Shown here: one piece after another, positions 1 to 19,983 of the stretch | Layout of the letters: each line of letters opens with the position of its first letter | Numbering within the stretch: the first letter of the stretch is position 1 | From: a virus | IMG/VR virus record: IMGVR_UViG_3300026484_000184 | Span: 1-20,070 of that record | Reading direction: 5' to 3' (one strand) | DNA: 20,070 nt | The notes under the pieces: model-generated | Database searches by the model: none | What the model saw: the letters and a program-made list of their open reading frames with translations, nothing else | What the model was told of the DNA's origin: nothing | Made by a program: the position numbers and the translations under genes

Positions 1-2
1 TC

Positions 3-2897
3 ATCAAAGAATTGACCTGATTTAAATTTAATTTTAACATTACTCATTGCTTTAACAAGAGATAATTCACTTCTATTTAAAAGAGCTTTTGATTTTTGAT
101 TAATAAGTCCTCTTAGTTTTGCATAATCAACAACTACTTTTGGTATTTTTCCATCTTTTAGTTCAATCATTTTTAATGATTTTTTATCAATTGCTTTTGG
201 AACACTTGGGTCTAATAAGTTAGATATACCAAGAAAATCATTATTGTATGTTTTAATAAATCTTAGGTTATGAGATACTATATTGTCTTCTATATTTTTT
301 AATTGTTCTTCTGTTATTTTTCTATCATTAATATCTTTTATGATATTTGTAAATTGTGTTTTACCTTCTTTAAATATTTCAGTTTTAGTAATTTTAATAT
401 CTTTGTTTTCTACTCTTTTGAGTTTTTTAAATGAATTAATCAACACATAATCTGGTTGGCTCTCTTTGAAGATTAAATCAAAAGATTTTTCATCTGAATT
501 AATGATTTTTGATAAGAAACTTTTTAAATTATTAATTGAATCAGTTTCAATAGGAATGTTTCTTTTTATTTCTTCAATTAAGATTTCTGAGTTTTCTATT
601 TTTAAACCTAAATCAATTAATGCTTTTTTAAAAATATCTTGTGTTAGTTTTTCAATATTCAAATCTTTTGAATCAAGATAAATGTTTACTACTTCTTCAA
701 ATTCTTTTGATTTTCCTTTAACTACTTTTAAATCTTTAAAAAGATTAAATAGTTTTTTTCTTGCAGTTATTTCTAATAATGCTTTAAATTCTTTTTTTAA
801 TCTATATTCTCCATTTTCTTCTTTTACTAATTTACTAATTAAGTAATCAATATTTTCATCATATGTTGTTGTTTTAGAAATAATATCTTCATACATTTTA
901 ATGATTGATTTTTCAACATCATTAACAAGTTGTTTTCTGATATCAAATATTTGTTTAATATCAATATTTTGTCCAGTAATATCTCTTATTAGTTTTATTG
1001 ATTTAGCTATATGTCTATCAATGTTTAATAGATGTTGAACAATTTTTGATTGTTGGTTCTTTGTTAAATAATCTTTTAATGATTTAAAGTAACTTAAATT
1101 TAAATCTCTATCTATTTTAATAGTTTGTTTCTTATCAGATAAAGATAAGAATTCATCACTACTTATTCCTTTTTGTTCAAGTTCTTCTAAGTCTTTTAGA
1201 ATTTCTGTTTCTACTTCTTTTTTAAGAGAAGAATCAATAGGAACTTTTGATTTAATTTTAAGATTTTCTAAATCTGCATCTTTAATATTAATGATGTCAT
1301 TTCTATGATATTTTCTTACTATTGCATCATTTGTAATAATCTCAGGTTCTTTTATAGCTTTTATAATATCGTTAAAAGACAAGTTTCTTAGTTCATTAAT
1401 ATCTTTATCTTTAAATTTATTTAAAGCCTCTAATGTATATGCAGCAATAGATAATTTGTTTATTAAATGATTTTCTTTTATGTTTTCTTTTGTTAGATAA
1501 CTTTTATTGTATTCAGCTTTTTTAGGTTGGACAAGAGGTTTGTCTTTTATCTTAGTTAAGAACCAACCAGAGTTTACTTTTGAATTAAAATGAATTGTTT
1601 TATCAGATATATTTGCTTTTAATAAATCTTTTACTTTTTTAAGTATCACTTTTTCTTTTTCTGGTTCTACATTTAAAGAATCAATTTGACTAATTATGTT
1701 TTCTTTTTCTTTGTCATCTTGTGCTATTTCACTTATTAATGTTTTTATATCATTGATTGATTTTAGATTGTCTATTTTATCTTTTAATTCTTTGATTTCT
1801 GAATTATGTTCTTTTGTTATAACAACAGAACCAATATCATCTTTGTTGTATTTAATAATTTCTCTTACTTTACTAAGATTTTCTTTTTTAATTATTTCAT
1901 CTTCAATCTTGTTTAATTCTTTAATTGCTTTTTCTTTATCAATTTCATTATTAATATATTTTTCTTTTATATTAATAGCTTTTTCTTTTAATTGTTTATC
2001 TTTTGTGTTTGCTATAAGTGTTTCATTAAATAATTCATCATCATTTAAAACTTTATCTATTTCTTCATTTGTTAAGTGTTTGATAGATATTGTTTCTATA
2101 TCATCACCCTTGTTGGTTCTAAATTGAACTTTATGTTCGTAATTGTTTTCATTTTCTGATACTTTTGATTTTAAATTAAAGTTGTTATGATGCTTTATAG
2201 AATAAATAACATCATTAAATTCATCATCATCAAGATGTTCCATAGAACCCATACCATCTGTTTCTTCAAGAGTTTTTTCTAATGCATATTTAATGTTTTT
2301 CTTTTCTTTTGCATGACTTAAAACACCAAGTGTTACAAAAGGCATAGATGCTATTAAGTTAAGACTAAAATTCTCTACAAAGTTATCACTCATGTCAACT
2401 TCAACTCTTTTACCTTCATCATCAATATATGATGATTTACCAACTGTTGTTTGGAATCCTGCCCAACCTATATTAGAACTAGTAATAGTTAACACATTTT
2501 TTAGTGATTCAAGTTTTGTTGATTCATCTGAATGCAATGCTATTTGTTTAGCTAAATTACCTTTAAAATGTTTTCTTATTAGTTTTCCAGTTAGTTTACT
2601 TGATAAACCTAAAATTCTTTTTTCAATAGCACTAGTTAAACCTCCACCAGCTAACAATCCAATAGCATCTCCAACAAATGTTGTTTGTTTAGAACCAGTT
2701 GGAGAATAGTTATCTCCTATATCAAATGCATTAAATGTTAATCCATCAATAGCATCTTTTGCTACATCTCCAAGATAAGAAGTTCCATAGGTTCTTAATG
2801 CGGCTTGAGTAGCTTGTTTATCTAAATCTACATCTTCATCAATTGTTCCAGTTATTTCCTGAGTTACATATTCATCTAAATTAAATTTATCACTCAT
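3..2897 (-). CDS. Giant helical virion protein, candidate ejection/internal virion protein (partial, runs off left edge)
   Basis: The frame is open for 965 codons from ATG at 2897 to the window edge; I read every line of it and found no in-frame stop. The ATG follows directly on the TAG of the upstream gene (TAGATG) and has a strong ribosome site, AAAGGAG, about 7 bases before it. Residues about 71-92 are glycine-rich and amphipathic, and residues about 178-193 are hydrophobic (SLNLIASMPFVTLGVL), which could be a membrane-interacting helix. After about residue 196 the chain becomes Lys/Glu/Ile/Asn-rich and almost wholly helical, with many coiled-coil-like heptads. It is the third of three consecutive large helical genes after the capsid gene, the place where podoviruses keep internal virion (ejection) proteins. 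No enzyme motif was recognised in the visible part, but the C-terminus is missing. The CDS is certain, the role is inferred from position and composition. Confidence 0.85.
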   Translation of the reverse strand, partial: MSDKFNLDEYVTQEITGTIDEDVDLDKQATQAALRTYGTSYLGDVAKDAIDGLTFNAFDIGDNYSPTGSKQTTFVGDAIGLLAGGGLTSAIEKRILGLSSKLTGKLIRKHFKGNLAKQIALHSDESTKLESLKNVLTITSSNIGWAGFQTTVGKSSYIDDEGKRVEVDMSDNFVENFSLNLIASMPFVTLGVLSHAKEKKNIKYALEKTLEETDGMGSMEHLDDDEFNDVIYSIKHHNNFNLKSKVSENENNYEHKVQFRTNKGDDIETISIKHLTNEEIDKVLNDDELFNETLIANTKDKQLKEKAINIKEKYINNEIDKEKAIKELNKIEDEIIKKENLSKVREIIKYNKDDIGSVVITKEHNSEIKELKDKIDNLKSINDIKTLISEIAQDDKEKENIISQIDSLNVEPEKEKVILKKVKDLLKANISDKTIHFNSKVNSGWFLTKIKDKPLVQPKKAEYNKSYLTKENIKENHLINKLSIAAYTLEALNKFKDKDINELRNLSFNDIIKAIKEPEIITNDAIVRKYHRNDIINIKDADLENLKIKSKVPIDSSLKKEVETEILKDLEELEQKGISSDEFLSLSDKKQTIKIDRDLNLSYFKSLKDYLTKNQQSKIVQHLLNIDRHIAKSIKLIRDITGQNIDIKQIFDIRKQLVNDVEKSIIKMYEDIISKTTTYDENIDYLISKLVKEENGEYRLKKEFKALLEITARKKLFNLFKDLKVVKGKSKEFEEVVNIYLDSKDLNIEKLTQDIFKKALIDLGLKIENSEILIEEIKRNIPIETDSINNLKSFLSKIINSDEKSFDLIFKESQPDYVLINSFKKLKRVENKDIKITKTEIFKEGKTQFTNIIKDINDRKITEEQLKNIEDNIVSHNLRFIKTYNNDFLGISNLLDPSVPKAIDKKSLKMIELKDGKIPKVVVDYAKLRGLINQKSKALLNRSELSLVKAMSNVKIKFKSGQFFD

Positions 2898-4889
2898 CTA
2901 TTCTCCTTTGATGCTTCTTTTAATAACTCCTGATGCAATATTATATCCAATGATAATATTTTTTAATTCTTCTTCTTGTTTGTCTGAAATAGAAGAATAA
3001 TAATTTAGAAAATCAAGTATCATTTTCTTTTTATATTGAGCTATCTCATTATTATCATATTTAGCTTTTAATTCTTTATCATCTGCTTGGTTCATTAAAT
3101 CAAGTAATGTTTTTGTAATACTATCAGCTTTTGTTGGTTCTATACCAGAGTTAACTAACTTAGTTTTAAATTCTTTTAGTGATGAAGAAGACTCAAATGA
3201 ATCTTTAATTAGATTGAATTGTTTTTTAATCTCTGTTGGTTCTAAATATGTAAACAATTCAATTTGTTTTTCTTTTGCTTTATCAAAATCTTTAATTAAA
3301 TAATTAGTATCATTAATTACATTTTTGTATTGAGATGATAAGAAGTTTTCATTTGAATAAATACCATAGTTTAATGTTGCATTTAATGCTTCTGTTGGTT
3401 TTATTTTGTATTTTTTAGAATACATATATGAGTATGCTAGTAAGTTTTTATAAAAAGCACTTTTGCTAAATCTGTTTTTAAACTCTTCTTTTGTTATGAT
3501 TGGACCATCTGCAACAATATTTAGTAGTTTATTTATTTTAGAACCAATTACTCCTGCATCTGTTACTCTTTCATATAGTTTATCTATAATGCTATCATCT
3601 GAAAAAGAGAATTTACTATCAAAAATTAAACCTTCTTTTTTAAAGTTTCTATGTTTAAAAATATCTTCAAGTAATTTAGGAAAATCTGATTCAGTTGTAT
3701 TTATAAGAGTTTCATTGTTTTTTAACATAGAACCAAGGAGTGCTATTACAGAATCAGTAGATATTGTATTATTATCAAGGAAACTTTTTATTGTTTTAAC
3801 AGCCTCATTTAATTGGCCTACATTAGCAAATTTACTTTTAGTAACTACATCTATTTTTAGTTTTGTTTTCATTTTTTCGTCAATTGAAAGTGAATTAATT
3901 GTTTTTAATAATTCATTTAAAGAAGTTCCATTAGTATTTAGATATTTCGTAACTTCTTCTTGATTTATTGTAGGTAGATTATTTTTATCAAAAGTTAAGA
4001 TTTTTTTAGCTATGAAATTGTTATATAGTTTTTGACAATCTTTAATACCAGAAGAACCACATGAATTTAAAAAAGCATCTTTGTTTTCAATTAGTGTTTT
4101 TAGGTTAAAATCAAGTCCATGGTTTTTGTATGTTTGTTCAAATACTTTTGTTGGTTCTAAATTCTTATTTTTAGCTAAATAACTAATAGCATCTTTTGTA
4201 GCAAGATATGCACTTTCAAGTTTTTGTTTTTTTGTTACTGGAACATTTAATTTATTTGTTTGTTGATAATTTTTATATATTTCTGATTTTAGCTTTTCGT
4301 TTTTAAGCACTCTGTTTTCAAACTCCATTGGAGTATATTGAACCAATCCATCAGGAGTAATAGTAACTCCTTTTGCTAATGCATTTGCTTTAATTTGTAA
4401 TAGTTTTGATTTTTCTTTTTGAATGTTTGCTAATTGTTTTAATGTTTCAATCTCTTTTTGTTTTTGTTCAAGTTCATATTGTTTTGTTACTTGATATACT
4501 TTTAAATCAAGAGATGCTTTTTGATTAGCAATATTAGCTAATACATTTATTCTATTTGTCTTTGCATTGTAAGCAGATATTTTTGCATTTATTCTATCTC
4601 TTTCTATTTGAGTTAGATTTGATATATACTTATCTGTTACATTTGCAAACATTTCTGTCATAAATTGATTTTCTTTTTGTAAAGCATTAGCATAGTTTTG
4701 ATATGCATTCATCATATCTCTTGTTGCTTGTAATCTTGCATTTATAGCTTGATTATAAACTTGATTCAATTGTTGTGTTGATACATCAATTTCTCTCCAT
4801 TTATCTTCATAAACTCTTTGTATATCTTCTGATGCTTTTTGTGTATTTGATAATTGTTGGTTTACATCTGAAAAATTAATATTAATCAT
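2898..4889 (-). CDS. 663-residue coiled-coil protein, candidate internal virion/ejection protein
   Basis: I do not recognise a named family. The first 200 or so residues are a long Gln/Asn/Lys-rich helical stretch (QQLNQVYNQAINARLQATRD, then repeated KQKEIE/LKQLANIQKEK patterns) typical of coiled coils. The rest is mixed helical with hydrophilic linkers and has a single CGSSGIKDC segment near residue 278. There is no signal peptide and no obvious membrane segment. The start codon lies 2 bases after the stop of the preceding gene, and its AGGAGC ribosome site is formed by that gene's last codons, so the two are probably translationally coupled. Size, composition and position downstream of the capsid resemble podoviral ejection proteins (the T7 gp14-16 or P22 gp7/16/20 sets), but no sequence motif proves this. 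The peptide EPT appears three times because the AGAACCAAC motif is read in that register. Confidence 0.85.
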   Translation of the reverse strand: MININFSDVNQQLSNTQKASEDIQRVYEDKWREIDVSTQQLNQVYNQAINARLQATRDMMNAYQNYANALQKENQFMTEMFANVTDKYISNLTQIERDRINAKISAYNAKTNRINVLANIANQKASLDLKVYQVTKQYELEQKQKEIETLKQLANIQKEKSKLLQIKANALAKGVTITPDGLVQYTPMEFENRVLKNEKLKSEIYKNYQQTNKLNVPVTKKQKLESAYLATKDAISYLAKNKNLEPTKVFEQTYKNHGLDFNLKTLIENKDAFLNSCGSSGIKDCQKLYNNFIAKKILTFDKNNLPTINQEEVTKYLNTNGTSLNELLKTINSLSIDEKMKTKLKIDVVTKSKFANVGQLNEAVKTIKSFLDNNTISTDSVIALLGSMLKNNETLINTTESDFPKLLEDIFKHRNFKKEGLIFDSKFSFSDDSIIDKLYERVTDAGVIGSKINKLLNIVADGPIITKEEFKNRFSKSAFYKNLLAYSYMYSKKYKIKPTEALNATLNYGIYSNENFLSSQYKNVINDTNYLIKDFDKAKEKQIELFTYLEPTEIKKQFNLIKDSFESSSSLKEFKTKLVNSGIEPTKADSITKTLLDLMNQADDKELKAKYDNNEIAQYKKKMILDFLNYYSSISDKQEEELKNIIIGYNIASGVIKRSIKGE

Positions 4890-4891
4890 TA

Positions 4892-5653
4892 TTAGCTCCT
4901 AAATTTTTTTGTTATAGCATCTCTTACTGCAACAGCATGATTATATTCATTTTCCTTAATTGACCATTCTTTAAGAGCTAAATCTTTTTGGAAATTATAT
5001 TGGTCAAATTGTAATGCATACATTTTCTCAAATTCAGCTTGTTTTTCAGCTAATTGTTTTTGTAATAAATCAGTTTGTGTATTTAATGCATATGTTTGAA
5101 AATCAAGGTTTTTTAAGAACATATCATATTGTTTTGCTAATGCTTGTTGTTGTAATTGATAAGTCATAGAATCTTTTTGTTTCATGTATTCTAATTGTTT
5201 ATTTAACATGTTTTTTTGTTCATTAATCAATGGTGAATAATCTATTTTAGGTAATGTTGGTTGCATAGGTTGTGTAGGTTGTATTGTTGGAATGTTTCCA
5301 ATAAGTGGTGTTTGTTGTTGTTGTGTTGTTGTTGGTTCTTGATAAGAATCAAAATAACTTATATCCTCTGATGTTGGTTCATATAAGAATGATAAATCAT
5401 CATTGATGTCATACCATACTGATTGCATACTATCATAGTCTTCATAACCAATTCCTTCTGAACTCCATAAAAAACCATCAGTATCAAAATAAGTTTCTGT
5501 TGTATCTTCTGTTGAAATTGGATTTCCAAATATATCATATCCAACATTTGATAAATCATCATCTGTATAATAATTTGAATCATAAGATTCATTTGTATTA
5601 CTTGAACCAAGTATTTCAGCAAAATATTCATTTAAATCAACATAATCTGCCAT
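4892..5653 (-). CDS. 253-residue acidic then coiled-coil protein, candidate internal virion protein
   Basis: The protein has three visible zones. Residues 1-105 are very acidic and rich in Tyr, Asp, Ser and Thr. Residues about 106-135 are a low-complexity Gln/Thr/Pro linker (TTTQQQQTP, QPTQPMQPTLP). Residues about 140-253 are a Gln/Lys/Leu-rich helix that looks like coiled coil (KQLEYMKQKDSMTYQLQQQA). The ribosome site is AAAGGA 8 bases before ATG. Its stop is 2 bases before the next gene, so it forms a pair with the 663-residue protein. The helical half resembles the N-terminal helix of that neighbour in composition, which suggests the two may contact one another in the virion. No known family was recognised; an internal virion or tail-associated role is inferred from context. 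Confidence 0.82.
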   Translation of the reverse strand: MADYVDLNEYFAEILGSSNTNESYDSNYYTDDDLSNVGYDIFGNPISTEDTTETYFDTDGFLWSSEGIGYEDYDSMQSVWYDINDDLSFLYEPTSEDISYFDSYQEPTTTQQQQTPLIGNIPTIQPTQPMQPTLPKIDYSPLINEQKNMLNKQLEYMKQKDSMTYQLQQQALAKQYDMFLKNLDFQTYALNTQTDLLQKQLAEKQAEFEKMYALQFDQYNFQKDLALKEWSIKENEYNHAVAVRDAITKKFRS

Positions 5654-5675
5654 TAGTAATCCTTTTTTAGTAAAG

Positions 5676-5681
5676 ATTATA
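5676..5681 (-). promoter_or_regulatory. Possible -10 box (TATAAT) before the ejection-protein genes
   Basis: A perfect TATAAT lies in the 60-base gap between the 107-residue gene and the 253-residue gene. No good -35 is found 17 bases upstream, where the sequence is a pyrimidine run. In DNA this AT-rich the hexamer can occur by chance, so this is only a candidate. Confidence 0.22.
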
Positions 5682-5705
5682 TAAAAGAAGAAGGAAAAGA
5701 GAAAG

Positions 5706-6037: not shown

Positions 6038-6065
6038 TTATAATCTCCTTTAATTTAATTTAATC

Positions 6066-6089
6066 ATCAGAACCAAGAGAGGTTCTGAT
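6066..6089 (-). other. 9-bp perfect inverted repeat made from two copies of the AGAACC motif
   Basis: ATCAGAACC and GGTTCTGAT form a perfect 9-bp stem with a 6-base loop in the gap after the major capsid gene. On the minus strand it is followed by GATTAAATTAAATT, which lacks a U-run, so it is not a classical intrinsic terminator. It could be an RNA-processing or stabilising hairpin at the 3' end of the capsid message, or an operator, since a TATAAT lies 11 bases upstream. Both arms carry the over-represented hexamer. Confidence 0.5.
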
Positions 6090-6100
6090 TGTTAAACTAA

Positions 6101-6106
6101 ATTATA
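6101..6106 (-). promoter_or_regulatory. Possible -10 box (TATAAT) after the capsid gene
   Basis: TATAAT lies 5 bases past the capsid stop codon and 11 bases before the inverted repeat at 6066-6089. No convincing -35 is seen at the normal spacing. If it is used, the transcript would begin with the motif hairpin. The call is weak because of the AT-rich background. Confidence 0.22.
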
Positions 6107-6111
6107 TCTAA

Positions 6112-7194
6112 TTAATATTCAATTTTAGCTTTAAGTAAAGCCATTCTTTCAGGGTACACAGAATAAGCTCCAAGCCAAGATTTGATACCAATAATTTGAA
6201 TTCTGTTTAGAGGGTCAGATTTATCTTGTGTGTTAAGTCCTTTAATGATAGTTTCAATTCTTCCTTTACCTCTTAAAGGAATGTCATAAGTGTGTTCTTT
6301 ACCTAGAATTAGAGCATATCCATATTTATTTGTTCCATCATCTTCAATAAGCATGTTTTCATTGTAAACATATCTTACTTCTCCAATTGTTCCAATTTCA
6401 TTATCCATTACTTTTGATTTATCAGGATATTTTTCAACAGGAATAAAATCAGGATTTTCTCTTAAATCAAATTCACATAAAGGGTTAACAATAGCAACAT
6501 ATTTAGTTTGAATTGGAACAGTTCCATAGTTAGGAGAATTGCTAAGAATTCTATCTACATATCTTGCTCCACTTAATCTAAGTTGCATAGTTACTTTTCT
6601 GTTTGCATCTGTAAATGCACTATCTTTCATTCTGTTAGAACCATTAGCATTACCACTAATATCAATTTGATGTCCTGCACTATTGATATATAAGTCTCTA
6701 TAAAAACCATCAATAGCATAAGATGCAATTTCACTAAGTTGTTTTACATGCCAACTTGTAGTCCATAAATCATGAAACAAACTAACTTCTTCTGTTACTT
6801 TTGACCAAAAACCAATAGGGAAAATATCAGTTGAGAATTCAACTACTTTTACATCACCAATTTGGTCTCCACTCTCACCTTCTGGTAGAATAAATTGTTT
6901 ATAGTAATCTTTATCTACCAAAGTAACAATACCTTCTCCTCTATCTTCAACATTGTTACCAGTGTATTCTTTATAGATTTTATTTGCAATCAATAAGTCT
7001 TTCATATTAACCATTCTTCTAAATGTTAATGTCTTCCCTTGGTTCTGAGGAATAGCTCTTGTTCTTGTTGCAAATTTATCAAAGATTGTTTTTTGTGCAA
7101 TTTCAGCAGTAGCAAGTTTCTCAATTATAGCTTGTTGTTTAGCTCCTAATACATCACCTTGATTTCCATAAGTAATATTCCCATTTAATGCCAT
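6112..7194 (-). CDS. Major capsid protein, N4-gp56 family type
   Basis: This is the main shell subunit of the head. The 360-residue length and pattern match the N4-gp56-type major capsid family: an N-terminal helix, then RAIPQNQGKTLTFRR (residues about 46-60), a loop with glycine-rich DRGEG and PEGESGD segments (the region that normally forms the E-loop), and in the C-terminal half YVAIVNPLCEFDLR followed by EKYPDKSKVMDNEIGTIGEV, which is the family's signature 'gEiG-..-vR' stretch. It follows a scaffold-like gene and a 107-residue gene, the usual order for phage head genes. The ATG has an AAGGAG site 8 bases upstream. There is no delta-domain or protease gene beside it. The family call is from recalled motifs and is strong. 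Confidence 0.9.
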   Translation of the reverse strand: MALNGNITYGNQGDVLGAKQQAIIEKLATAEIAQKTIFDKFATRTRAIPQNQGKTLTFRRMVNMKDLLIANKIYKEYTGNNVEDRGEGIVTLVDKDYYKQFILPEGESGDQIGDVKVVEFSTDIFPIGFWSKVTEEVSLFHDLWTTSWHVKQLSEIASYAIDGFYRDLYINSAGHQIDISGNANGSNRMKDSAFTDANRKVTMQLRLSGARYVDRILSNSPNYGTVPIQTKYVAIVNPLCEFDLRENPDFIPVEKYPDKSKVMDNEIGTIGEVRYVYNENMLIEDDGTNKYGYALILGKEHTYDIPLRGKGRIETIIKGLNTQDKSDPLNRIQIIGIKSWLGAYSVYPERMALLKAKIEY

Positions 7195-7207
7195 TAATTA
7201 CTCCTTA

Positions 7208-7531: not shown

Positions 7532-7540
7532 TTAACCTCC

Positions 7541-8392
7541 TTAAATTTCTTCAATTAATAATTTTTCAATCTCATCTGGGTCTGAGACATCACTGTTCCA
7601 AATGCTATCATAATCATCTTTTTTTTCTGTATGTAAAGACTTTTTATGTTCTTCTTGTAAAGGTTCACTTGGAGTTTTAGGAACATCTTTATTGTTTTTA
7701 AGTTCATTGATTGCTTTTTTAAAAGCATCTCCCCAATCAATATGAGGTTCTTTTGCTTTTATTTTAAGAGCTACTGGATATATTTTATTAAATGAACCAT
7801 CTTCTACTTGTTTGATAAAAACTTCAAATGCTTTTGGGATAGATAATATAACTTGTCTTAATGATGGGTCTATTGTATTAATAGTTTTAATAATTCTACC
7901 ACTCAATTCAGGGTCTCTTTTTGCAACATTATCAAACATTTTTTGAATAGGATTTTCTTCTTGTTTTTCTTCTTGTCTTGGTTCTTCAAACTCTAATTCA
8001 ATTGATTCTTCTCCAAGAAGTTTTAGAATTTCTTTTTTAGAACCAACATTGCCATTGATAGCATCTTTAAACAACAATAATTTATCTTTACCAATCTCTT
8101 TTGCAATATCAATTATGTCTTGATAATTACTTAATTGATTGTATTTTTCTTCAACTTCTAGTCCTCTTCTAGCTAATGCATAAAGTTCATCTATATCTTT
8201 TATTTCAATTGTTTTAGAACCAACAACAAGAGGTTTTAATTGATTTTTATTTTCTGTGTTTGTTGGTTCTTGATTAGTATTTTCTTGGTTATTCCATTCA
8301 TCTAGTGGTATTTCATCACCTTTCCAAATATCATCAACATTTTCTGTGTTTGTATTGTTTTCTTCAAAAAACTCTTTTAATTCTTCATTCAT
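7541..8392 (-). CDS. Capsid scaffolding protein candidate
   Basis: The 283-residue protein is strongly acidic and helical with low-complexity ends, as phage scaffolds usually are. The N-terminal 50 residues are Glu/Asn/Thr-rich and disordered in appearance. Residues about 56-85 (LVVGSKTIEIKDIDELYALA) match the common scaffold pattern of a short beta segment followed by 'i-d-ELyaLAr-GleveeKy'. Next comes a helical domain with GNVGSKKEILKLLGEE (113-128). The segment D-x-I-W-x-x-D appears twice, at 20-26 near the N-terminus and at 262-268 near the C-terminus. Its place between portal and major capsid genes supports the call. No Ser/His/Asp protease motif is seen, so it is not an obvious prohead protease. 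ATG has an AAGGAGG site. Confidence 0.75.
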   Translation of the reverse strand: MNEELKEFFEENNTNTENVDDIWKGDEIPLDEWNNQENTNQEPTNTENKNQLKPLVVGSKTIEIKDIDELYALARRGLEVEEKYNQLSNYQDIIDIAKEIGKDKLLLFKDAINGNVGSKKEILKLLGEESIELEFEEPRQEEKQEENPIQKMFDNVAKRDPELSGRIIKTINTIDPSLRQVILSIPKAFEVFIKQVEDGSFNKIYPVALKIKAKEPHIDWGDAFKKAINELKNNKDVPKTPSEPLQEEHKKSLHTEKKDDYDSIWNSDVSDPDEIEKLLIEEI

Positions 8393-8402
8393 TTAATCCT
8401 CC

Positions 8403-8597
8403 TTATTTGTAATATTCAATAAAGTCTCTAAAAGACTTAATTGCTTTTAATTCATGAATAACATTTTCATCTCTAACATCTTCTAAAAATACCAATTCTT
8501 TAACCCTATCATCACAATAGTATTGAATAAATACTTTAACAAAATCTTCATTATTTAGCAACCTATTTAACCTATCCTTGATTTCTGTCTTCTCCAT
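8403..8597 (-). CDS. 64-residue portal-adjacent small protein
   Basis: This short helical protein starts inside the last codons of the portal gene (26-base overlap), with an AGGAG site formed by portal codons. It reads NNEDFVKVFIQYYCDDRVKE, then FLEDVRDENVIHELKAI and ends FRDFIEYYK. Proteins of this size with a 'n-dF-..-l-..-y' start and a helical end are common just after portal genes in podovirus-like genomes. The role is unknown; it may help head assembly. It is probably coupled to portal translation. Confidence 0.72.
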   Translation of the reverse strand: MEKTEIKDRLNRLLNNEDFVKVFIQYYCDDRVKELVFLEDVRDENVIHELKAIKSFRDFIEYYK

Positions 8598-11105: not shown

Positions 11106-11115
11106 AATTATCTCC

Positions 11116-13239
11116 TTATTTTACTTCTATTCCTAAAACTGATTTTACCAAATCACCGTTATAAAATGATAACCAATATGCTCTTCCATATTTTACTTTA
11201 TTATCATCATACCTTAAAAACATTTCTATATTGGTATAAGCACGAACACCACATTCAATTGATTGAGATATCACTCTAAAAGTAATGTAATTAAATTTCC
11301 AACCATCTATTTCAATTTTAGTCCATCTTCCCGTTGGTTCTTTTATAGTGTCCATTGCTTTTGTATGAGCTTGTCCACAACTTGCCCATTTTTCATAATC
11401 AGTATAATTATATCCCCAGCAAGGGTTGCCAATAAATCCTAATACTCCAAAACTAAAATTAATTTTGTTTTCGCTTAATCTATTTATCAAATCTTTGATA
11501 TTTATTGAAACTAAGTTTTTACCATCATATTGATACCATTGTCCGTTATATTCAAATATTGGTTTTCTACAATCAAGTTTACATTTTTTATATTTTTTAA
11601 TTATTTTTCCATTTCTTGTTGTTTCATCACATAAAACAAGACTATTTTTTATTTTGTTGTAATATTCAATCTTTATTTTTTCTTGATATAAATCAAAACA
11701 TGTATAAGAACCAACAAGTTCTAGTGATTTTTCTTGTTTTGAATAAACTCTTCCTTTTGAACATTTACATTCTTCTTCTGAATTAAATTCATCTCCATTA
11801 GGTTTATATATTTTACAACCATCTTTTTTACAACATTCACATTTACAACCTATACCACAACATTTCAATTTGTTTTCAAGTTCTTTAATGTTATTACATA
11901 AATCACAATTACACTTAGAGCACAATGGATAATCCATACAATTTGGATATAAAGGATTATTACAACCACATATGTTAGTTGTTAAACCTTTTAAATCACT
12001 TTTATCTATAATAAAACAAAATGGAATAGGTAATGATTCAAGATAACATAAATCATTTTTTTCTTCTTCTGTTATTGTTCCATCTATTTTTTTCTGTGTT
12101 AATTCAGTCAATTTTGAAGAAAAATATTTTAATCTCTCTTGATTGACTCCAATGATTGAAATTAAATAATTTTTGCATTTTACATATGAAGATGGATTAT
12201 AGTTTCTACAATTTGCATATCCATTATTTAAAATAACATTTGAGTTTGTTTCAAGAAAACAATCTTTAAAAATTATCTTATCAATTTTTCCTTCCTCATT
12301 CTTAATGACTTCAACACAATCCCAATTTCTACAAGTTCTATTTTTAGATTCATCACACATAATAGTTAAATATTTCCATAAGTTTATAGATTCTTTTCCA
12401 TCTTCTCTTTTTAAGAAATTAACTACTTTATCAAAGTTATAAATATTTGTTGCAAAGAATTGATAAAACTCAATCTTTGATATTTGGTTCTTTTCTAAAA
12501 AATCATTAAAAGATAAATTGAAAATATATTTATTACATCTCTCATCAATTATATCACATGGATATTTATAACCCAATAATGTTGTTTTTGTATCTCTTAA
12601 TGCTACATTTTCAAAAATCTTATCATAAGCACAAATTGGTTTTATGCAATCTCCCGTATCAATAAAAACACCATTACTATCTTTATCACAAATCTTACCA
12701 TCAGAACCAACAATTTCAGGACAACAAATATTGTATTTTTCAAAAGAAAAAACAATACCACAATCATTATAAAAAACATATCCTGCACTATTCATATAAA
12801 GTTCATATGCTTTTTCTATAAATTTAACATAGTCTTTTTCTTTAATATGAACCAAATCTTTCCTTAATTCATTAGGAACTACATCAAGTTCAGATGCTAA
12901 ATAAGGAATATTTCCACATCTCTTACATAAGCAATCATAAACATCATCTTTTATACATTTACCATCTTCATCATAAGAAATAAATTCAGTATCAATTGAT
13001 AATTTAAAAACATTTGTAGGTTTATAGGATATAACAGAACCAATTGTAGGAGAATAAAAGTTTAAACCTAAACAATCTATCTCTTCTTGTGTTAATTCAA
13101 TTTGAATTGTATCTCCAAATTTCATAATAAAACCAACATCATAACCATTTTTAATTGACCTATATATTCTTGGAGTCGTTGAACTCATTATTTGATAAAC
13201 AAAAGTTTGAACAAATAAATCATTTTCATAATAATTCAT
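11116..13239 (-). CDS. Cysteine-rich 707-residue virion protein, candidate tail fibre or adhesin
   Basis: The start is taken at ATG 13239, which overlaps the previous gene's stop (TGATG) and has AAGGTG upstream; a TTG one codon earlier is less likely. No known family was recognised. About 44 cysteines are present (about 6%), against one to three in most neighbours. Sixteen of them fall in about 72 residues around 422-493, in CxC, CxxC and CC spacings (CSKCNCDLC, CCGIGCKCECC). The N-terminal 60 residues look like a virion-attachment beta region (MKFGDTIQIELTQEEID). The C-terminal 110 residues (from FIGNPCWGYNYTDYEKW) are aromatic and beta-rich, as in receptor-binding tips. There is no signal peptide. 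Disulfides or metal clusters could stabilise an extracellular fibre. Tail fibre is a guess from size, position and composition. Confidence 0.8.
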   Translation of the reverse strand: MNYYENDLFVQTFVYQIMSSTTPRIYRSIKNGYDVGFIMKFGDTIQIELTQEEIDCLGLNFYSPTIGSVISYKPTNVFKLSIDTEFISYDEDGKCIKDDVYDCLCKRCGNIPYLASELDVVPNELRKDLVHIKEKDYVKFIEKAYELYMNSAGYVFYNDCGIVFSFEKYNICCPEIVGSDGKICDKDSNGVFIDTGDCIKPICAYDKIFENVALRDTKTTLLGYKYPCDIIDERCNKYIFNLSFNDFLEKNQISKIEFYQFFATNIYNFDKVVNFLKREDGKESINLWKYLTIMCDESKNRTCRNWDCVEVIKNEEGKIDKIIFKDCFLETNSNVILNNGYANCRNYNPSSYVKCKNYLISIIGVNQERLKYFSSKLTELTQKKIDGTITEEEKNDLCYLESLPIPFCFIIDKSDLKGLTTNICGCNNPLYPNCMDYPLCSKCNCDLCNNIKELENKLKCCGIGCKCECCKKDGCKIYKPNGDEFNSEEECKCSKGRVYSKQEKSLELVGSYTCFDLYQEKIKIEYYNKIKNSLVLCDETTRNGKIIKKYKKCKLDCRKPIFEYNGQWYQYDGKNLVSINIKDLINRLSENKINFSFGVLGFIGNPCWGYNYTDYEKWASCGQAHTKAMDTIKEPTGRWTKIEIDGWKFNYITFRVISQSIECGVRAYTNIEMFLRYDDNKVKYGRAYWLSFYNGDLVKSVLGIEVK

Positions 13240-13934: not shown

Positions 13935-14569
13935 AAACCTTTAAAATTATGATGTATTTTTGAATTAAGATAAAAATAATGAGGATTTTTATCAAGAATC
14001 TTATTTAACTGAAATTCATATTCTTTTTTCAATCCAAAAACATGTTGTTGGTTCTGAACATCAGTATACAATGATTGTGCTTTGTATCTTAAACCAGCTA
14101 TTAAAGCATCCTTGATTAAAGTTTCAAGATACATATCTATTTGAGTCATGTTTGGAATAATAGATAATACAACTTTATATGTTTTATAAGAATCAACAGG
14201 TAAACCAATATACTCAAAAGTTTCAATATCTAATTGTTTAAAATCGTTAAACATAACTGATTGATTTTTTAAATCAAGAATATCAATAACATTATTCATT
14301 CTCTTTGAATAAGATGAACCATTTGGTTCATTTAATGAAGATATTAAGATAGTAGAATCATCTATTGTAGTTGTATCTGTTGTGTTTTCATATCCTATCA
14401 AAATAGCATTAAAATTATATTCTTTTAATCCATTTAATACATTAAAATATATTTCTTTTCTAAAAAGATTTGTGTATGAAAAAATCTCATCAAGTAAATC
14501 ATCAATAAAATCATAATATAAATCATCATCAAGTTGTAAATCTCTCAAATATGTTCTATAATCTTTCAT
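13931..14569 (-). CDS. 212-residue candidate head-tail connector/tail accessory protein
   Basis: The protein begins with an acidic helical region (QLDDDLYYDFIDDLLDE), has a Thr-rich middle (NTTDTTTIDDSTI) and ends in a helical part with DMYLETLIKDALIAGLRYKA at about 146-165. The 'p-..-Y-..-l-..-aL-aGL-ykA' type helix is reminiscent of tail accessory or connector proteins that dock on the portal, such as P22 gp4-like proteins, but no definitive motif exists. ATG is 4 bases after the upstream stop and has AAAGGAATAAGG before it. A near-palindrome of the motif (TGAACCA-TT-TGGTTCA) lies inside the gene at 14315-14330. Confidence 0.72.
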   Translation of the reverse strand: MKDYRTYLRDLQLDDDLYYDFIDDLLDEIFSYTNLFRKEIYFNVLNGLKEYNFNAILIGYENTTDTTTIDDSTILISSLNEPNGSSYSKRMNNVIDILDLKNQSVMFNDFKQLDIETFEYIGLPVDSYKTYKVVLSIIPNMTQIDMYLETLIKDALIAGLRYKAQSLYTDVQNQQHVFGLKKEYEFQLNKILDKNPHYFYLNSKIHHNFKGL

Positions 14570-14572
14570 ACC

Positions 14573-14869
14573 TTATTCCTTTAATAAATTATCAGAATAA
14601 CTTAATATTAATTGTTTAATTTCAGATAAAATATCTTCATTTGAAATTTCTTTGTTTTTGCTTAAATAAACTATTTTTTTATCAATCAACAATTCATTAC
14701 AATAAAGTTTTATTTCAACTTCATTAGAATAAATTGTTACTTCAAATGTTTTAATTAATCCATCAGAACCAACAGGGGTATATTTTATACCTTCAACTTC
14801 TAATGTTGGTTCTAAACAATTAGTTTTTACTTCTATTTGATATAAGTTATCAGTCATTTGTTTAACCAT
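14573..14869 (-). CDS. 98-residue small protein after the endolysin, function unknown
   Basis: The frame is open from a TTG at 14884, but I prefer ATG at 14869, which overlaps the endolysin stop (ATGGTTAA) and so allows translational coupling; neither start has a strong ribosome site. The protein looks beta-rich (LYQIEVKTN, TFEVTIYSNEVEIKLYCNE) with an acidic helical tail. It contains both EPT and VGS peptides, each encoded by a copy of the AGAACC motif. A small virion protein such as a connector or fibre-associated subunit is possible. The function is not recognised. Confidence 0.65.
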   Translation of the reverse strand: MVKQMTDNLYQIEVKTNCLEPTLEVEGIKYTPVGSDGLIKTFEVTIYSNEVEIKLYCNELLIDKKIVYLSKNKEISNEDILSEIKQLILSYSDNLLKE

Positions 14870-15284
14870 TGAATGCGCTTTCAAATAATTTTTTAACTCT
14901 ATTACATCTACTTTTAACTTGATTGCACCATTTACTATTCTCTATTTCATATGATGCTTTTTCAAAATCAAATTCATTTAGAGCTTTAATCATTTTTTTA
15001 AATGTTTTAAATCTATTAATCCCCATATTAAACATCATATCAATAAGTCCTATCTTGATTGGTTCGGGGAACAAATAAAAATTATCTTTAAATATCTTAA
15101 CTAAATCATTAATAGCATCATCTATATCATTTTGAAAAAGATATTCAACCTCATAATCTTTTAATCCTTTTCCAGTTAAATTTCTACCTATTCCAATAGT
15201 AATATTACCATATATATCTTTATATGGTTTATTCCTATATCCTTCATTTAATAAAATAAATTCTTTTACTTTGTCTATGTTCAT
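14862..15284 (-). CDS. Endolysin, T4-type lysozyme (glycoside hydrolase family 24)
   Basis: The enzyme cuts the glycan strands of peptidoglycan to release progeny. The T4 lysozyme catalytic triad is intact with exact spacing: Glu14 in LLNEGYR, Asp23 in PYKDIYG and Thr29 in NITIGIGRNLTG (T4: E11, D20, T26). The following LFQNDIDDAINDL and IGLIDMMFNMGINRF segments match the rest of the family. The 140-residue length fits the family's core. No signal peptide or SAR anchor is visible, so release should depend on a holin, and the preceding gene is a candidate. AAAGGAT precedes ATG. Presence of this fold suggests a Gram-negative host. Confidence 0.93.
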   Translation of the reverse strand: MNIDKVKEFILLNEGYRNKPYKDIYGNITIGIGRNLTGKGLKDYEVEYLFQNDIDDAINDLVKIFKDNFYLFPEPIKIGLIDMMFNMGINRFKTFKKMIKALNEFDFEKASYEIENSKWCNQVKSRCNRVKKLFESAFNG

Positions 15285-15285
15285 A

Positions 15286-15768
15286 TCAATCCTTTAATAT
15301 TCCTCTTAAAATGACTTCTATTAAGATTCCTACTATTGTAGTTGTTATAAAAATAATTGTTTTATTTATTTTGTTTATTTTCTCATCTAAGTTATTAATT
15401 CTTTCATCAAAAATATCATATGATGGACATTTTCTATTTTGCATTTTTTCTTTTTCTTCATTAATTGTTTTATAAATATCTGCAATATCTCTTTCAATTT
15501 TTTCTATTTCAGAAGAAAATGTTTCTTTACTTTTCATACAACAATTATCAACTTTATTAATTTTCTCTTCAAATATTTTCATGTTTTTTTCTGTATCATT
15601 TTTAATATATTCAATCTTTGTAAGTATTATCTCTTGGTTCTTTAATGCTTCATTAATTTGCTCTATTGATAGAGAAATTTTTTCTGTTGTCTTTTGTATG
15701 TTATCAATACTTTTTTTAATATACTCAATCTCTAACGAATGTCTTGATATTATCTCTTGACTATCCAT
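15286..15768 (-). CDS. Coiled-coil protein with C-terminal membrane helix, candidate XhlA-like holin component
   Basis: Residues about 10-130 are heptad-like Lys/Glu/Ile/Asn coiled coil (IEYIKKSIDNIQKTTEKISL). Residues about 137-154 are a hydrophobic C-terminal segment (TIIFITTTIVGILIEVIL) followed by RGILKD. The arrangement of an N-terminal coiled coil with one C-terminal membrane helix, just before an endolysin, resembles XhlA-type lysis proteins, though those are usually 70-100 residues. A spanin or an inner-membrane virion factor is an alternative. It starts 20 bases after a terminator with AAAGGATTGAG before ATG, and its stop lies 1 base before the endolysin start. Confidence 0.75.
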   Translation of the reverse strand: MDSQEIISRHSLEIEYIKKSIDNIQKTTEKISLSIEQINEALKNQEIILTKIEYIKNDTEKNMKIFEEKINKVDNCCMKSKETFSSEIEKIERDIADIYKTINEEKEKMQNRKCPSYDIFDERINNLDEKINKINKTIIFITTTIVGILIEVILRGILKD

Positions 15769-15779
15769 CTCAATCCTTT

Positions 15780-15811
15780 AAAAAAAAGAGAGATTAAACA
15801 AGAATCTCTCC
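15780..15811 (-). terminator. Intrinsic (Rho-independent) terminator
   Basis: On the minus strand GAGAGATT (15810-15803) pairs perfectly with AATCTCTC (15795-15788) around a 7-base loop, extendable by further pairing at the base, and is followed directly by eight T residues (15787-15780). The TAA stop of the 196-residue gene straddles the loop and 3' arm. The ribosome site of the next gene (AAAGG) begins right after the T-run. This would separate the terminase block from the lysis and head genes unless read through. Confidence 0.8.
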
Positions 15812-16384
15812 TACAACACTTCCTGTGAAATTATCAATTTTATTTTCAACATTTTTGATAGCATCATAAATCATGTCTTCATCATGAGCAACACATTCAA
15901 CAGCTTTACTGATATTTAGTAAATCAATGCTTGGATTATTAATAACAACCAAATATTTACCAATACTTTTTGGAGTATATTCCATTTTATATACACCAGT
16001 GTTTCCTACTCTATTAATTGTATCTCCATCTGCAATACTATCACTAATAGGTTTTCTTGCATAAAGGATATTGTTTGTAGTATCTACATCTTCAACATAA
16101 AAATAAATATCTTTACCATCAACTTTTGCTACAAAACCTTTTTTCCAATTAGTAGCATCATCTACTGTTATTTTTGTAGAACCAACAGGAGTATCACCAG
16201 ATGCTTTTGAACTTAATGCATCTACTTCAACAACAACCTCAGTCATTACTCCTTCAAACTTATCTTCAATACCAGCTTTTGGATTTGCTACAATAACATT
16301 AAATGTGCTATCTTTTCCATATACATCATCTTTACCTAAGTCAACTCCAATTACTTCACTTCTACCAACAACCCATTTACTCAT
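15794..16384 (-). CDS. 196-residue Ig-like beta protein, candidate virion decoration or fibre subunit
   Basis: The sequence is beta-rich with short acidic turns. The outer parts look like one Ig-like sandwich: an early strand set (DSTFNVIVANPKAG) and a late GVYKMEYTPKSIGKYLVVI (about 136-154), the typical final strands of filamin/Ig-type domains. Between them lies GSTKITVDDATNWKKGFVAKV to DGDTINRVG (about 68-130), a pattern seen as a small nested beta domain in phage structural proteins. A C-terminal helix follows (DMIYDAIKNVENKID). Start has AAAGGAGGT, the strongest ribosome site here, so expression is probably high. A role in the virion is inferred. Confidence 0.75.
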   Translation of the reverse strand: MSKWVVGRSEVIGVDLGKDDVYGKDSTFNVIVANPKAGIEDKFEGVMTEVVVEVDALSSKASGDTPVGSTKITVDDATNWKKGFVAKVDGKDIYFYVEDVDTTNNILYARKPISDSIADGDTINRVGNTGVYKMEYTPKSIGKYLVVINNPSIDLLNISKAVECVAHDEDMIYDAIKNVENKIDNFTGSVVGEILV

Positions 16385-16409: not shown

Positions 16410-16709
16410 TTACAATATTACAATATCATCATTTTTATCAAATATGTCACTAATAACTTCAAAAACTTCTTTAAATTCTTCATTGGTTCTTTTATTAACG
16501 ATAGTTATAATATATTTTTGTGGAGAGAAAATATAAAAAACAGGAGTCCAATACCAATCATTATCTTTAATAAAAGAACCAACAACATGAGTTTTTGATA
16601 AAGGATTTATTAATGGTGAGTAATAACATTCAAAATGTTTTTCATTAGTAAAAATTGATTTATACAAAACACCAAATCTAATAGGTTCACCAACTTTAAA
16701 TACTTTCAC
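16410..16709 (-). CDS. 99-residue beta-rich small protein, function unknown
   Basis: The start is GTG, overlapping the TGA of the previous gene (GTGA), a coupling arrangement; ribosome site is weak. The protein is rich in aromatic residues and beta-like segments (VFKVGEPIRFGVLYKSI, YWTPVFYIFSPQKYIITIVN), of Ig-like or fibre-associated appearance. The 'F-k-v-GEPI-r-F-.-V' start is like that of phage beta-sandwich proteins. Its neighbour downstream is the Ig-like protein, which suggests a joint structure. No family was recognised. Confidence 0.7.
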   Translation of the reverse strand: MKVFKVGEPIRFGVLYKSIFTNEKHFECYYSPLINPLSKTHVVGSFIKDNDWYWTPVFYIFSPQKYIITIVNKRTNEEFKEVFEVISDIFDKNDDIVIL

Positions 16710-17053
16710 GCTATTGTTCCATTTTTTTGATTTGAAATTACAGAACCAGTTGTTGGTTCTATATATGGATTAGCATCCATAATTCCTATAATCTTTGTTC
16801 CATCTTTTAATATAAAAAAATCTTTAATATCAAATAATTTAATAGCATAATCACAAAATATTTTGTAGTTTTTACCATTTCTCATATCAAATAAATCTGC
16901 ATAATAAATAAAAATATAATTACCATGTTCATCTTTATTTGAATCTGATTCTTGTAGTTTATTTATTATTGTTTTGTATTTTGAGAAGAGGTAATCGTAA
17001 GTGGCTGTTGAGTTCTTACGAACCATTACCTCATATCTTTTTAAACCAGCCAC
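16706..17053 (-). CDS. 115-residue small protein with GTG start in a hairpin, function unknown
   Basis: The start codon is GTG at 17053-17051 (MAGLKRYEV), with AAAGG 8 bases upstream; the in-frame ATG nine codons later lacks a well-spaced site. The chain is mixed, with FIYYADLFDMRNGKNYKIFC in the middle and a turn-rich C-terminus. No family was recognised. The start codon and codons 16-19 can pair (see the regulatory feature), so translation could be controlled by RNA structure. Two motif copies in inverted orientation at 16742-16760 encode TTGS and EPT in the C-terminal part. Confidence 0.7.
   Translation of the reverse strand: MAGLKRYEVMVRKNSTATYDYLFSKYKTIINKLQESDSNKDEHGNYIFIYYADLFDMRNGKNYKIFCDYAIKLFDIKDFFILKDGTKIIGIMDANPYIEPTTGSVISNQKNGTIA
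16742..16760. repeat. Inverted pair of the AGAACC motif inside a gene
   Basis: AGAACCA and TGGTTCT form a perfect 7-bp inverted repeat with a 5-base loop inside the 115-residue gene. It has the same design as the intergenic 9-bp pair after the capsid gene. Confidence 0.6.
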
Positions 17054-17841: not shown

Positions 17842-17858
17842 GAAGAAGAAATGTAAAG

Positions 17859-19370
17859 TTAAAATATATAAGGATTTTTATATTCTCTTTGCTTTAAGAA
17901 AGAAAATTCATCATCATCTTCTTCATCTACAAACATAGAACCAACATAAACAGTATCAGTTAATGTTAGTTGAGCTATACTATCTATTAAATCATCATGT
18001 TTAGCTTTTATAGCCTCATTTGTAATCATACTCATTTCTGATTTTAGTTCATCTACAAAGTCTTTTAAATAATCTTCTGGTAACCAGAACTTACCCATTT
18101 CAACAATAGGTTGAAATCCTTTTAATACTGCTAACTTACTATTGGTTCTTTTAACTTTTTCTATATTAAAAAACTTACCTCTTTTAATCATCTCTTTTTT
18201 TAAGAAAGTATCAAAAGCAAGTTGTAATCCTATCTGTTCCATAACAACAGCATAAGGTCTCCATCTTGTAACAAACTTAAATATTTGTTCTATTGTTTCA
18301 TCAGGTTTTACTCTTCCAAAAAAACCATCAACTAAGAACCAATCATTATTTTCATTTATCCCTATTACACTAATAGCAGTATAATCAGCATAATCTTTTT
18401 CACTTACAGCTAAATCAACAGAAACATAAAAAGTTAATGAATGAACAAATTTCTTTAAATCTTCTAATTTAAAGTAATTAATTTTGTTCATATCATAGAG
18501 TAAGTTATCTCTTGGAACAACTTTAAGCATATATTCTTGCCAAAAGCTAAGTTCTCTACCATTTTCTTTTAATTCTTCATATGTTCCTAGTATTTCATCA
18601 GGAGTAAATCTATCAGGCCATGAAGAGATTATTTCATTTTTGTTTAATACAGGAAACTTCTCACATACAGGAAGTTCTATAAAAGCCCATTTTGAATTAT
18701 GATAAAGCTCCATTAATAAACTGTCTTCATGAGTAGGAGTTCCAATAATAATCATTTCATATTTATTCTTGTTAACAGCAGGTGCTACTGCATTATAGAA
18801 CCACCATTTTAACTTATCTCTACTTTCTTTTGTAGTTTGTTTATTCTCATCTTCAATATCATCAAGAATAATAATATTAGGTCTTTTACCTCTTATGTTA
18901 ATACCCCTAATAGCTTGTCCACTACCTTTACCTCTTATATACATCATCTTATCTTTTTCTTTATTATAAACCCATAATACAGGATTATCACCTAAATTCT
19001 TTTTCTTTATTTCAAGATAATTACTTAATTCAGTATCTTCAATAAGATAAGATAATGTGTCAATGGTTGATGCTACCATATCAACAGTATCTTGAATAAG
19101 TAAGATATAATCAAACTCTCCAAAGTTAGGTTTTCTTGCTTTAAAGAGCCAATACAATAAGTTATATCTCATTAAAGTTGTTTTACCAAAACCCCTATGA
19201 CACATAACTCCTTTTCTCTTATATCTTGAATTAATATGGTCAATTAATTGAAAATGAGAAGGTGGAGTTTTGTTTTCTTCTTCAAAAAACATATTGAACC
19301 AAGTGAAGTATTCAATAGCCTCTTTTGTAGGAGTATAAGGTTTATTGTATGGAGTTCTATTTATTACCAT
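17859..19370 (-). CDS. terL: Terminase large subunit (packaging ATPase and nuclease)
   Basis: The protein pumps DNA into the prohead and cuts the concatemer. Residues 58-65 HRGFGKTT are the Walker A motif, 166-174 IIILDDIED the Walker B motif with the catalytic acid, and IIIGTPTHED (207-216) the coupling motif. The nuclease domain of RNase H fold follows: Asp319 in VSVDLAVSEKDYADYTA, Glu378 in AVVMEQIG and Asp460 in AKHDDLIDSIAQL. At 503 residues it is of full usual length. ATG has GGAGAT 7 bases upstream, inside the end of the small terminase gene, and the two genes overlap by 14 bases. All key residues are present, so it should be active. Confidence 0.96.
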   Translation of the reverse strand: MVINRTPYNKPYTPTKEAIEYFTWFNMFFEEENKTPPSHFQLIDHINSRYKRKGVMCHRGFGKTTLMRYNLLYWLFKARKPNFGEFDYILLIQDTVDMVASTIDTLSYLIEDTELSNYLEIKKKNLGDNPVLWVYNKEKDKMMYIRGKGSGQAIRGINIRGKRPNIIILDDIEDENKQTTKESRDKLKWWFYNAVAPAVNKNKYEMIIIGTPTHEDSLLMELYHNSKWAFIELPVCEKFPVLNKNEIISSWPDRFTPDEILGTYEELKENGRELSFWQEYMLKVVPRDNLLYDMNKINYFKLEDLKKFVHSLTFYVSVDLAVSEKDYADYTAISVIGINENNDWFLVDGFFGRVKPDETIEQIFKFVTRWRPYAVVMEQIGLQLAFDTFLKKEMIKRGKFFNIEKVKRTNSKLAVLKGFQPIVEMGKFWLPEDYLKDFVDELKSEMSMITNEAIKAKHDDLIDSIAQLTLTDTVYVGSMFVDEEDDDEFSFLKQREYKNPYIF

Positions 19371-19983
19371 TCATTATCTCCAATACCTTATCAGCACTTA
19401 ATCCTTCTAATTTAGAACTTATTTCATTCATTTTATCTTCTATTCTATTTATCTGAACATTGTTAACATTAATATTAACTTCTAATCCTTTCATTTCTTC
19501 TGGTTTTCTTGTTTCTTGTAAAAATACTTTCATATACTCAATCCTATCTCTGTCTTTGGTTCTTTTATCATAAATCTTTTCAAGAGCCAAGTCCAATACC
19601 ATAAATCTATCAGCCATATATGATACATACATAGATGCACTAACTAAACTAACTATTCTCTTATATACTTTATATTCTTCAACTCTTCTAGCTTTTGTTT
19701 CAATAGTGTTTCTATTGTTACTTGAATTGTATCTTTCAGGAAAAGCAACCTTAAAAGCCTCTACTCTTGATTTTCTATAAATCAATCTATGTTTAGCATA
19801 AACAATTGTTCTTATTGTTTTTTCATATTCACTTGGTTTAACATTGCAATCAAGAATTAACATTTCAAGTTCATCAAAATCAATATCATTAGCAAAACCT
19901 ATCTTATTAGCAATCTCATATATTGGTTCTAATCTTTTTTCAACCACTCTCATTTTTTTACCTTCAAACTCTAACTTATTCAT
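19357..19983 (-). CDS. Terminase small subunit candidate
   Basis: It precedes and overlaps the large terminase gene, the normal place for the DNA-recognition subunit. The N-terminal part is helical, with SRVEAFKVAFPERYN (about 72-86), similar to the 'k-..-A-..-aFpe-..' segment of small-terminase HTH domains. The middle is a helical oligomerisation region. Near residues 168-177 there is a beta segment EVNINVNNVQIN, followed by a C-terminal coiled coil (IEDKMNEISSKLEGL), a layout seen in several small terminases. The family match is by context and pattern, not by a definitive motif. AAGGAG is 7 bases before ATG. Confidence 0.72.
   Translation of the reverse strand: MNKLEFEGKKMRVVEKRLEPIYEIANKIGFANDIDFDELEMLILDCNVKPSEYEKTIRTIVYAKHRLIYRKSRVEAFKVAFPERYNSSNNRNTIETKARRVEEYKVYKRIVSLVSASMYVSYMADRFMVLDLALEKIYDKRTKDRDRIEYMKVFLQETRKPEEMKGLEVNINVNNVQINRIEDKMNEISSKLEGLSADKVLEIMNGNK

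Follow-up and report, generated by a model that had tools for sequence, protein, structure and literature searches.

Why does a stretch of viral DNA repeat one short, non-palindromic word far beyond what its composition would give, and what reads that word? The question is raised by a virus record, IMGVR_UViG_3300026484_000184, of which positions 1 to 20,070 (26% GC) were analysed here and are referred to as the window. We find that the word, AGAACCAA (complement TTGGTTCT), is under selection at the level of the DNA, strong enough to reshape the proteins of the phages that carry it. As to what maintains it, we tentatively suggest a host-determined signal that benefits the phage and is most like Chi, a reading to which we give somewhat less than an even chance.

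Counts of the word and selection on the DNA

The hexamer AGAACC is found 57 times in the window, 28 times on the plus and 29 times on the minus strand, as opposed to 11.4 copies expected under an order-2 Markov model. The over-representation described in the original prediction is thus confirmed, even though its estimate of about five copies by chance was too low. The count of 57 holds for the hexamer and not for the 10-mer AGAACCAACA, which occurs 19 times (its reversed-pattern control: 0). The excess grows sharper with word length, i.e. AGAACCA has 52 copies (27 plus, 25 minus, about one per 386 bp) against 6.0 expected under the same model, AGAACCAA has 44 against 2.8, and GAACCAAC has 25 against 0.9. 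The top-ranked 6-, 7- and 8-mers of the window are all words of this family, as the proposed Markov ranking of 6- to 10-mers was meant to reveal, and the suspicion that related hexamers might be equally frequent is refuted (ACCAGA 11, AGACCA 1). One-base variants are mostly near background. When the flanks of the 52 AGAACCA sites are aligned, A follows at position 8 (44 of 52) and C is preferred at position 9 (24 of 52), then comes a weak A; the upstream flanks carry no clear information. Sites extend from 1054 to 19924, in agreement with the predicted range of 1053 to 19932, and PHROGs confirm the motif-bearing genes that had been named as terminase, portal and capsid, the last as the major head protein.

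Synonymous-codon shuffles of the same proteins (n=1000) give 7.0±2.3 copies of AGAACCA, with a maximum of 14, as compared to 44 observed in the coding sequences, so a codon-level simulation does not reproduce the counts. The choice of codons is telling: 17 of the 23 Gly-Ser pairs in the window are written GGTTCT, 18 of the 22 Glu-Pro pairs are written GAACCA, and all three Trp-Phe pairs are written TGGTTC. A substantial conservation was also detected between relatives. At 80-90% identity 81% of the motif heptamers are fully conserved, as opposed to 49% of permuted heptamers; the respective values are 70% and 29% at 75-80% identity, and 49% and 18% below 75%. These percentages are to be read as effect sizes and not as tests, because the sequence pairs are not independent. 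Individual sites turn over and density is kept: at 75-80% identity 130 sites are shared and 121 are present in one sequence only, and of the four terminase sites, two recur at the homologous codons of two relatives and the other two do not.

The motif is about 1.5-1.9 times denser outside open reading frames (4.3-6.5/kb) than inside them (2.7-3.8/kb). Its mark on the proteins is visible in the observed-to-expected ratios of dipeptides. In four large motif contigs of the window clade the ratio is 1.9-2.4 for Glu-Pro and 1.8-2.5 for Gly-Ser, as opposed to 0.6-0.9 and 1.1-1.2, respectively, in four motif-free relatives, and for the reversed dipeptides no comparable excess is seen consistently. 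Therefore the motif reshapes proteins. Shuffles, conservation, intergenic density and dipeptide excess all back the view that selection acts at the DNA level and that protein repeats are not the cause.

Carriers and non-carriers among phages

The window continues in two near-identical records, G001 and G002. With 46,225 bp and a 99.4% match to the window, G001 is nearly a complete genome, because G002 overlaps both of its ends; it contains 106 copies of AGAACCAA (54/52), the reversed control 13. About 14 relatives carry the motif at roughly 10-fold excess. Among them the terminase relatives L090-L102 (54-66% identity) are all enriched, approximately 9-14 fold, and the top 7-mer is AGAACCA or GAACCAA in all seven that were checked. 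A sister contig with 48% terminase identity, L103, is not enriched (3 copies in 17 kb vs 2.0 expected), and both it and the dense L091 come from the same metagenome, 3300021792. Contigs with terminases that are 26% identical or less over most of their length are not enriched either. L103 has a repeated word of its own, ATAGACGA, with 10 copies vs 0.7 expected at 7051-16081, mostly on one strand and probably a protein-level effect; TAGACGA was considered as a different motif of this contig and rejected as one-sided (9 plus, 2 minus).

The terminase and the portal protein are about 30% identical to those of N4-like phages, and the homology of the head protein is weaker. Judged by these sequences, the window-type phages are classified as N4-type (Schitoviridae-like) podoviruses, and as distant relatives only, because a 46-kb genome is smaller than that of N4. 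Enriched N4-type contigs are also found beyond the window clade (G004 with 113 kb, L258, L302, L311, L279, L330, L355, L399 and L404). There are dialects among the carriers: G004 mixes AGAACCAA and TGAACCAA, L258 has many AGAACCAC variants, L349 uses TGAACCA, and L390/G086 is mildly enriched. Besides the motif, L279 (1-5671) contains TATCGATA six times and GATATCGA five times, each vs 0.1 expected. Tandem 10-mer pairs, another candidate feature of viral contigs, proved to be mostly single-strand protein repeats. Overall, the density in carriers is about 1-5/kb on both strands, the carriers belong to half a dozen lineages or more, and every dense viral contig whose genes were looked at is of the N4 type.

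Most of the 80 N4-type portal loci are at motif background, among them contigs of 58-64 kb (G079 with 1 copy, G080 with 3 and G081 with 2). Metagenome 3300026512 holds the dense G077 alongside the non-dense G079 and G080. On the portal tree, in which three rows sit on long branches with unsure placement, the motif state changes at least seven times. Motif-free sisters (L332, L383, L339) stand beside motif-rich ones (L330, L404, L355), and the portals of the dense L330 and the non-dense L332 are 68% identical. Repeated gain and loss among relatives, the dialects, and the occurrence of motif-rich next to motif-free phages in one sample point to a factor that changes with the host, or to a mobile factor.

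With respect to arrangement, five of six contigs have close to random gaps between sites and G001 has slightly even ones, so regular spacing was rejected as a property of the motif. Most sites lie inside genes, and in each of four genomes the copies are split almost evenly between sense and antisense (60/55, 64/58, 68/76, 55/55); repressor sites of the stoperator type were discarded on these grounds. A hairpin whose stem is the motif itself (CAGAACC..GGTTCTG) follows the major head protein gene in the window, and motif-stem hairpins are found after this gene in G073, L311, L279 and L330 as well. In G017 a hairpin is present at this position but lacks the motif, which suggests that the structure came first and the word was added to it. 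In three of four genomes, convergent motif pairs do not clearly exceed random expectation.

The positions are collected in Table 1. Window positions 1-2890 (minus strand) belong to a reading frame of 2,964 aa in G001 (19276-28170), apparently a giant virion or ejection protein, and the window sites from 1054 to 2691 lie inside it.

Table 1. Motif sites and landmark features, in window coordinates
Feature	Position	Strand	Basis or remark
52 AGAACCA copies	1054..19930	both (27 +, 25 -)	site list with flanks; 6.0 expected
AGAACCAACA	1051..1060	-	10-mer search
AGAACCAACA	2111..2120	-	10-mer search
AGAACCAACA	3132..3141	-	10-mer search
AGAACCAACA	3234..3243	-	10-mer search
AGAACCAACA	4149..4158	-	10-mer search
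AGAACCAACA	5330..5339	-	10-mer search
AGAACCAACA	8039..8048	+	10-mer search
AGAACCAACA	8216..8225	+	10-mer search
AGAACCAACA	8261..8270	-	10-mer search
AGAACCAACA	9985..9994	+	10-mer search
AGAACCAACA	11707..11716	+	10-mer search
AGAACCAACA	12703..12712	+	10-mer search
AGAACCAACA	14046..14055	-	10-mer search
AGAACCAACA	14765..14774	+	10-mer search
AGAACCAACA	14804..14813	-	10-mer search
AGAACCAACA	16178..16187	+	10-mer search
AGAACCAACA	16575..16584	+	10-mer search
AGAACCAACA	16751..16760	-	close intragenic inverted pair with + site at 16742
AGAACCAACA	17937..17946	+	10-mer search
Intergenic hairpin stretch after major head protein gene	6038..6111	-	fold, -24.4 kcal/mol
Major head protein gene, with motif sites	6112..7194	-	PHROG 1357, 5.5e-35
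Portal protein gene, with motif sites	8572..10662	-	PHROG 1216, 3e-91
Terminase large subunit gene, four motif sites	17859..19370	-	PHROG 38

Possible readers of the word

The reading that we tentatively prefer is argued by exclusion and by analogy with Chi. A DNA-end-processing nuclease of the host, of the RecBCD/AddAB type, would recognise the octamer in the course of degrading linear or broken DNA, and would then stop degrading and pass the DNA end to recombination. Phages that keep a linear genome in such a host would gain by saturating it with the word, and both orientations would be useful if breaks arise anywhere. That the host sets the motif, that the nuclease reads it and that the motif protects the phage is, taken as a whole, a model we hold as plausible but short of an even chance. 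We favour it because it is host-specific, benefits the phage and needs no dense host, i.e. it requires the fewest additions. In Escherichia coli, Chi occurs at only about 0.2/kb (observed-to-expected ratio about 2.3), and coliphages without recombinases exceed the ratio of their host (PMC3784561); because of this low density a Chi-like signal does not call for a dense host genome.

Several points weigh against this model. Carriers exceed the density of Chi in E. coli by a factor of several to more than ten. Orientation polarity, which in G001 is pronounced in the left 6.5 kb (1-6500, an early and partly intergenic region with about 18 plus to 3 minus copies of AGAACCA), is not seen in G073, G075 and G074, three of the four large contigs, as far as the contig ends reflect those of the genomes; an end polarity of the Chi type is observed in G001 only. 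The window-type phages have their own Sak4/RecA-like ATPase and PD-(D/E)XK nuclease, and in coliphages the possession of such genes is associated with a weaker dependence on Chi. Finally, the restriction of the examined dense contigs to the N4 type fits a cause intrinsic to the phage too, and suggests that something about these phages matters, perhaps a linear genome.

It is natural to ask whether a host with the same word can be found. At least one sample with motif phages is a deep-sea hydrothermal chimney, and other records presumably also come from hydrothermal fluids. Metagenome 3300005095, the source of G017 and L311, is cited in a study of East Pacific Rise vent chimneys, in which Campylobacteria and Aquificae are the dominant groups of the active chimney (PMC7329443). 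The ThyX protein is nearest to those of Campylobacter phages (36% identity), a weak lead to the host that is not decisive, and one Campylobacterota plasmid is at motif background (4 copies in 118 kb). Inverted 10-mer pairs were sought across 84,980 bacterial and archaeal species, and none of the 57 matching genomes is motif-dense by whole-genome counts. Motif-phage DNA gives about 8-11 such pairs per Mb (from four counted pairs only), so that a 2-Mb chromosome would be expected to give about four matches at half the phage density and about one at a quarter; the scan would miss a Chi-like density as well as hosts absent from the collection. Mariprofundus was rejected as the host, since the seven genomes with an inverted pair followed by T-rich sequence have only 7-15 copies each, and the remaining genomes are at or near background. 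In those seven (L031, L042, L050, L051, L055, L063, L067) several copies of AGAACCAACA, including the inverted pair and the T-rich sequence, are clustered within a few hundred bp of a genome otherwise at background, possibly an operator cluster. The original idea of a copied host uptake or recombination signal thus stands in part: gain and loss on the portal tree suggests determination by the host, but the dense host was not found among these species.

A different answer is that the word is specific to the phage. Spread over the whole genome and matched in density by no cellular one, it would be recognised by a phage factor or a phage-specific host factor that separates phage from host DNA in end protection, recombination or packaging, and it would have been gained and lost repeatedly among N4-type phages, with selection strong enough to rewrite proteins. 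We regard this as possible, though doubtful. We consider it unlikely that the reader is a DNA-binding protein encoded by these phages, a factor of recombination, replication, segregation or packaging for which AGAACCAA serves as a self-signal, in a module that moves between N4-type phages. The confinement of the examined dense contigs to N4-type phages and the outcome of the species scan both speak for such a protein, and candidates are at hand. Ten early G001 proteins searched in Pfam gave a RepL-like protein, an AAA_24 ATPase resembling phage Sak4/RecA-like proteins, a PD-(D/E)XK nuclease, an HNH protein and weak primase-helicase matches. The RepL-like plasmid replication protein (L071:7085-7495, PF05732, 1.3e-11) has winged-helix matches, and the Sak4-like ATPase, the primase-helicase, the nuclease and ThyX are shared by the window-type phages and G004. 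However, none of the shared genes compared across carriers and non-carriers tracks the motif, and sister phages differ in motif state. The nuclease was rejected as a shared reader, since most N4-type genomes have it whether they carry the motif or not, and the Sak4-like ATPase was rejected as no homologue was found in the dense G075. The phage DNA-binding protein named in the original prediction is thus an unlikely option, and no candidate gene follows the motif. No DNA polymerase was noticed among the G001 proteins looked at, and no integrase was seen among those scanned, which are part of the proteome.

An uptake sequence of the host, of the DNA uptake sequence (DUS) or uptake signal sequence (USS) type, has the best precedent in phages and is in our opinion improbable here, below the phage-encoded protein. 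The receptor of a competent host would prefer AGAACCAA, the chromosome would be full of it, and the phages would accumulate copies by recombination or long co-evolution. Nearly all phages that lysogenize Pasteurellaceae accumulate the USS of their host, with host dialects and saturating at about 750/Mb (PMC6776037), and the two orientations, the dialect-like variants and the inverted pairs as intergenic hairpins are found in Neisseria DUS too (PMC3630211). On the other hand, large, likely lytic phages are USS-poor in the Pasteurellaceae study (PMC6776037), and the density here is up to several times the maximum of those phages. Uptake sequences should also enter the temperate phages of the same host, but the dense contigs examined are all N4-type. 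A dense host would have to lie outside the species collection, where about four matches would have been expected from a 2-Mb host half as dense as the phages.

The Chi-like model remains our preference, with the phage-encoded reader and the uptake sequence not far below it, and two further explanations fare much worse. Very unlikely is a methyltransferase, BREX-like or phosphorothioate site kept as a protective mark: a non-palindromic word of this length would suit a type III or BREX-like system, but phages as a rule lose and do not gain such sites, and the methyltransferase that had been proposed has no match among the ten proteins of the near-complete G001 searched in Pfam, part of its proteome. 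An artefact of composition or coding, be it through codon usage, low GC or repetitive proteins, is practically negligible, for although AT-rich, Lys/Glu/Asn-rich phages yield AT-rich words easily, it is rejected by the codon shuffles, the reversed control, the permuted heptamers, the motif-free relatives and the AT-rich Campylobacter phage CP81 (8 copies of AGAACCA in 50 kb, the same as the reversed control).

Comparison with known dense words

N4-type phages thus carry a dense word, at densities that reach above the benchmarks compared here; sister phages are without it, and the search for cellular genomes of like density found none. The reader of the word, whichever it is, acts on phage DNA as DNA, and the selection doubles certain dipeptides. 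If the signal is Chi-like, a recombination or defence signal of uncultured bacteria could be read from their phages and hosts could be assigned by it; if it is phage-specific, it would be a categorically new form of self-marking.

It is instructive to compare the general features of the motif to other systems. Dense genomic words as such are already known, as the DUS and USS of competent bacteria, as HIP1 of cyanobacteria and as Chi, and a limited literature search for AGAACCAA found no description of the word, its carriers or its density. HIP1 is a chromosomal, palindromic octamer (GCGATCGC), very dense and dispersed. The likeness to it that had been proposed holds for the density and the dispersal, and fails for the palindrome, as the motif of the phages is non-palindromic. 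The stoperators of mycobacteriophage L5 are also asymmetric phage motifs repeated along the genome, but they have about 30 copies, mostly intergenic, oriented with transcription and read by one protein, as opposed to 130 copies in 46 kb, mostly intragenic and in both orientations.

Closer parallels are found in uptake sequences. The USS of Pasteurellaceae phages (Hin-USS, Apl-USS; PMC6776037) are likewise short non-palindromic words on both strands, dense in phages, with dialects and missing from unrelated phages. There, however, the host chromosome holds the same word and the ceiling in prophages is about 0.75/kb, as opposed to about 1-5/kb in N4-type phages for which no dense host was found. 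With the DUS dialects of Neisseria (PMC3630211) the motif shares a fixed core with variable ends, strand symmetry without a palindrome and, to judge by the stretch after the head protein gene of several lineages, perhaps also inverted pairs as terminator-like intergenic hairpins; the DUS is the chromosomal motif of a competent bacterium, has another sequence and its uptake was shown by experiment. The E. coli Chi (PMC3784561) is different in that its density is about 0.2/kb, while the motif described here is far denser and no consistent orientation polarity was found for it. It is similar in being an asymmetric octamer that can benefit a phage and that is enriched beyond the level of the host in some phages, namely in coliphages lacking recombinases or RecBCD inhibitors.

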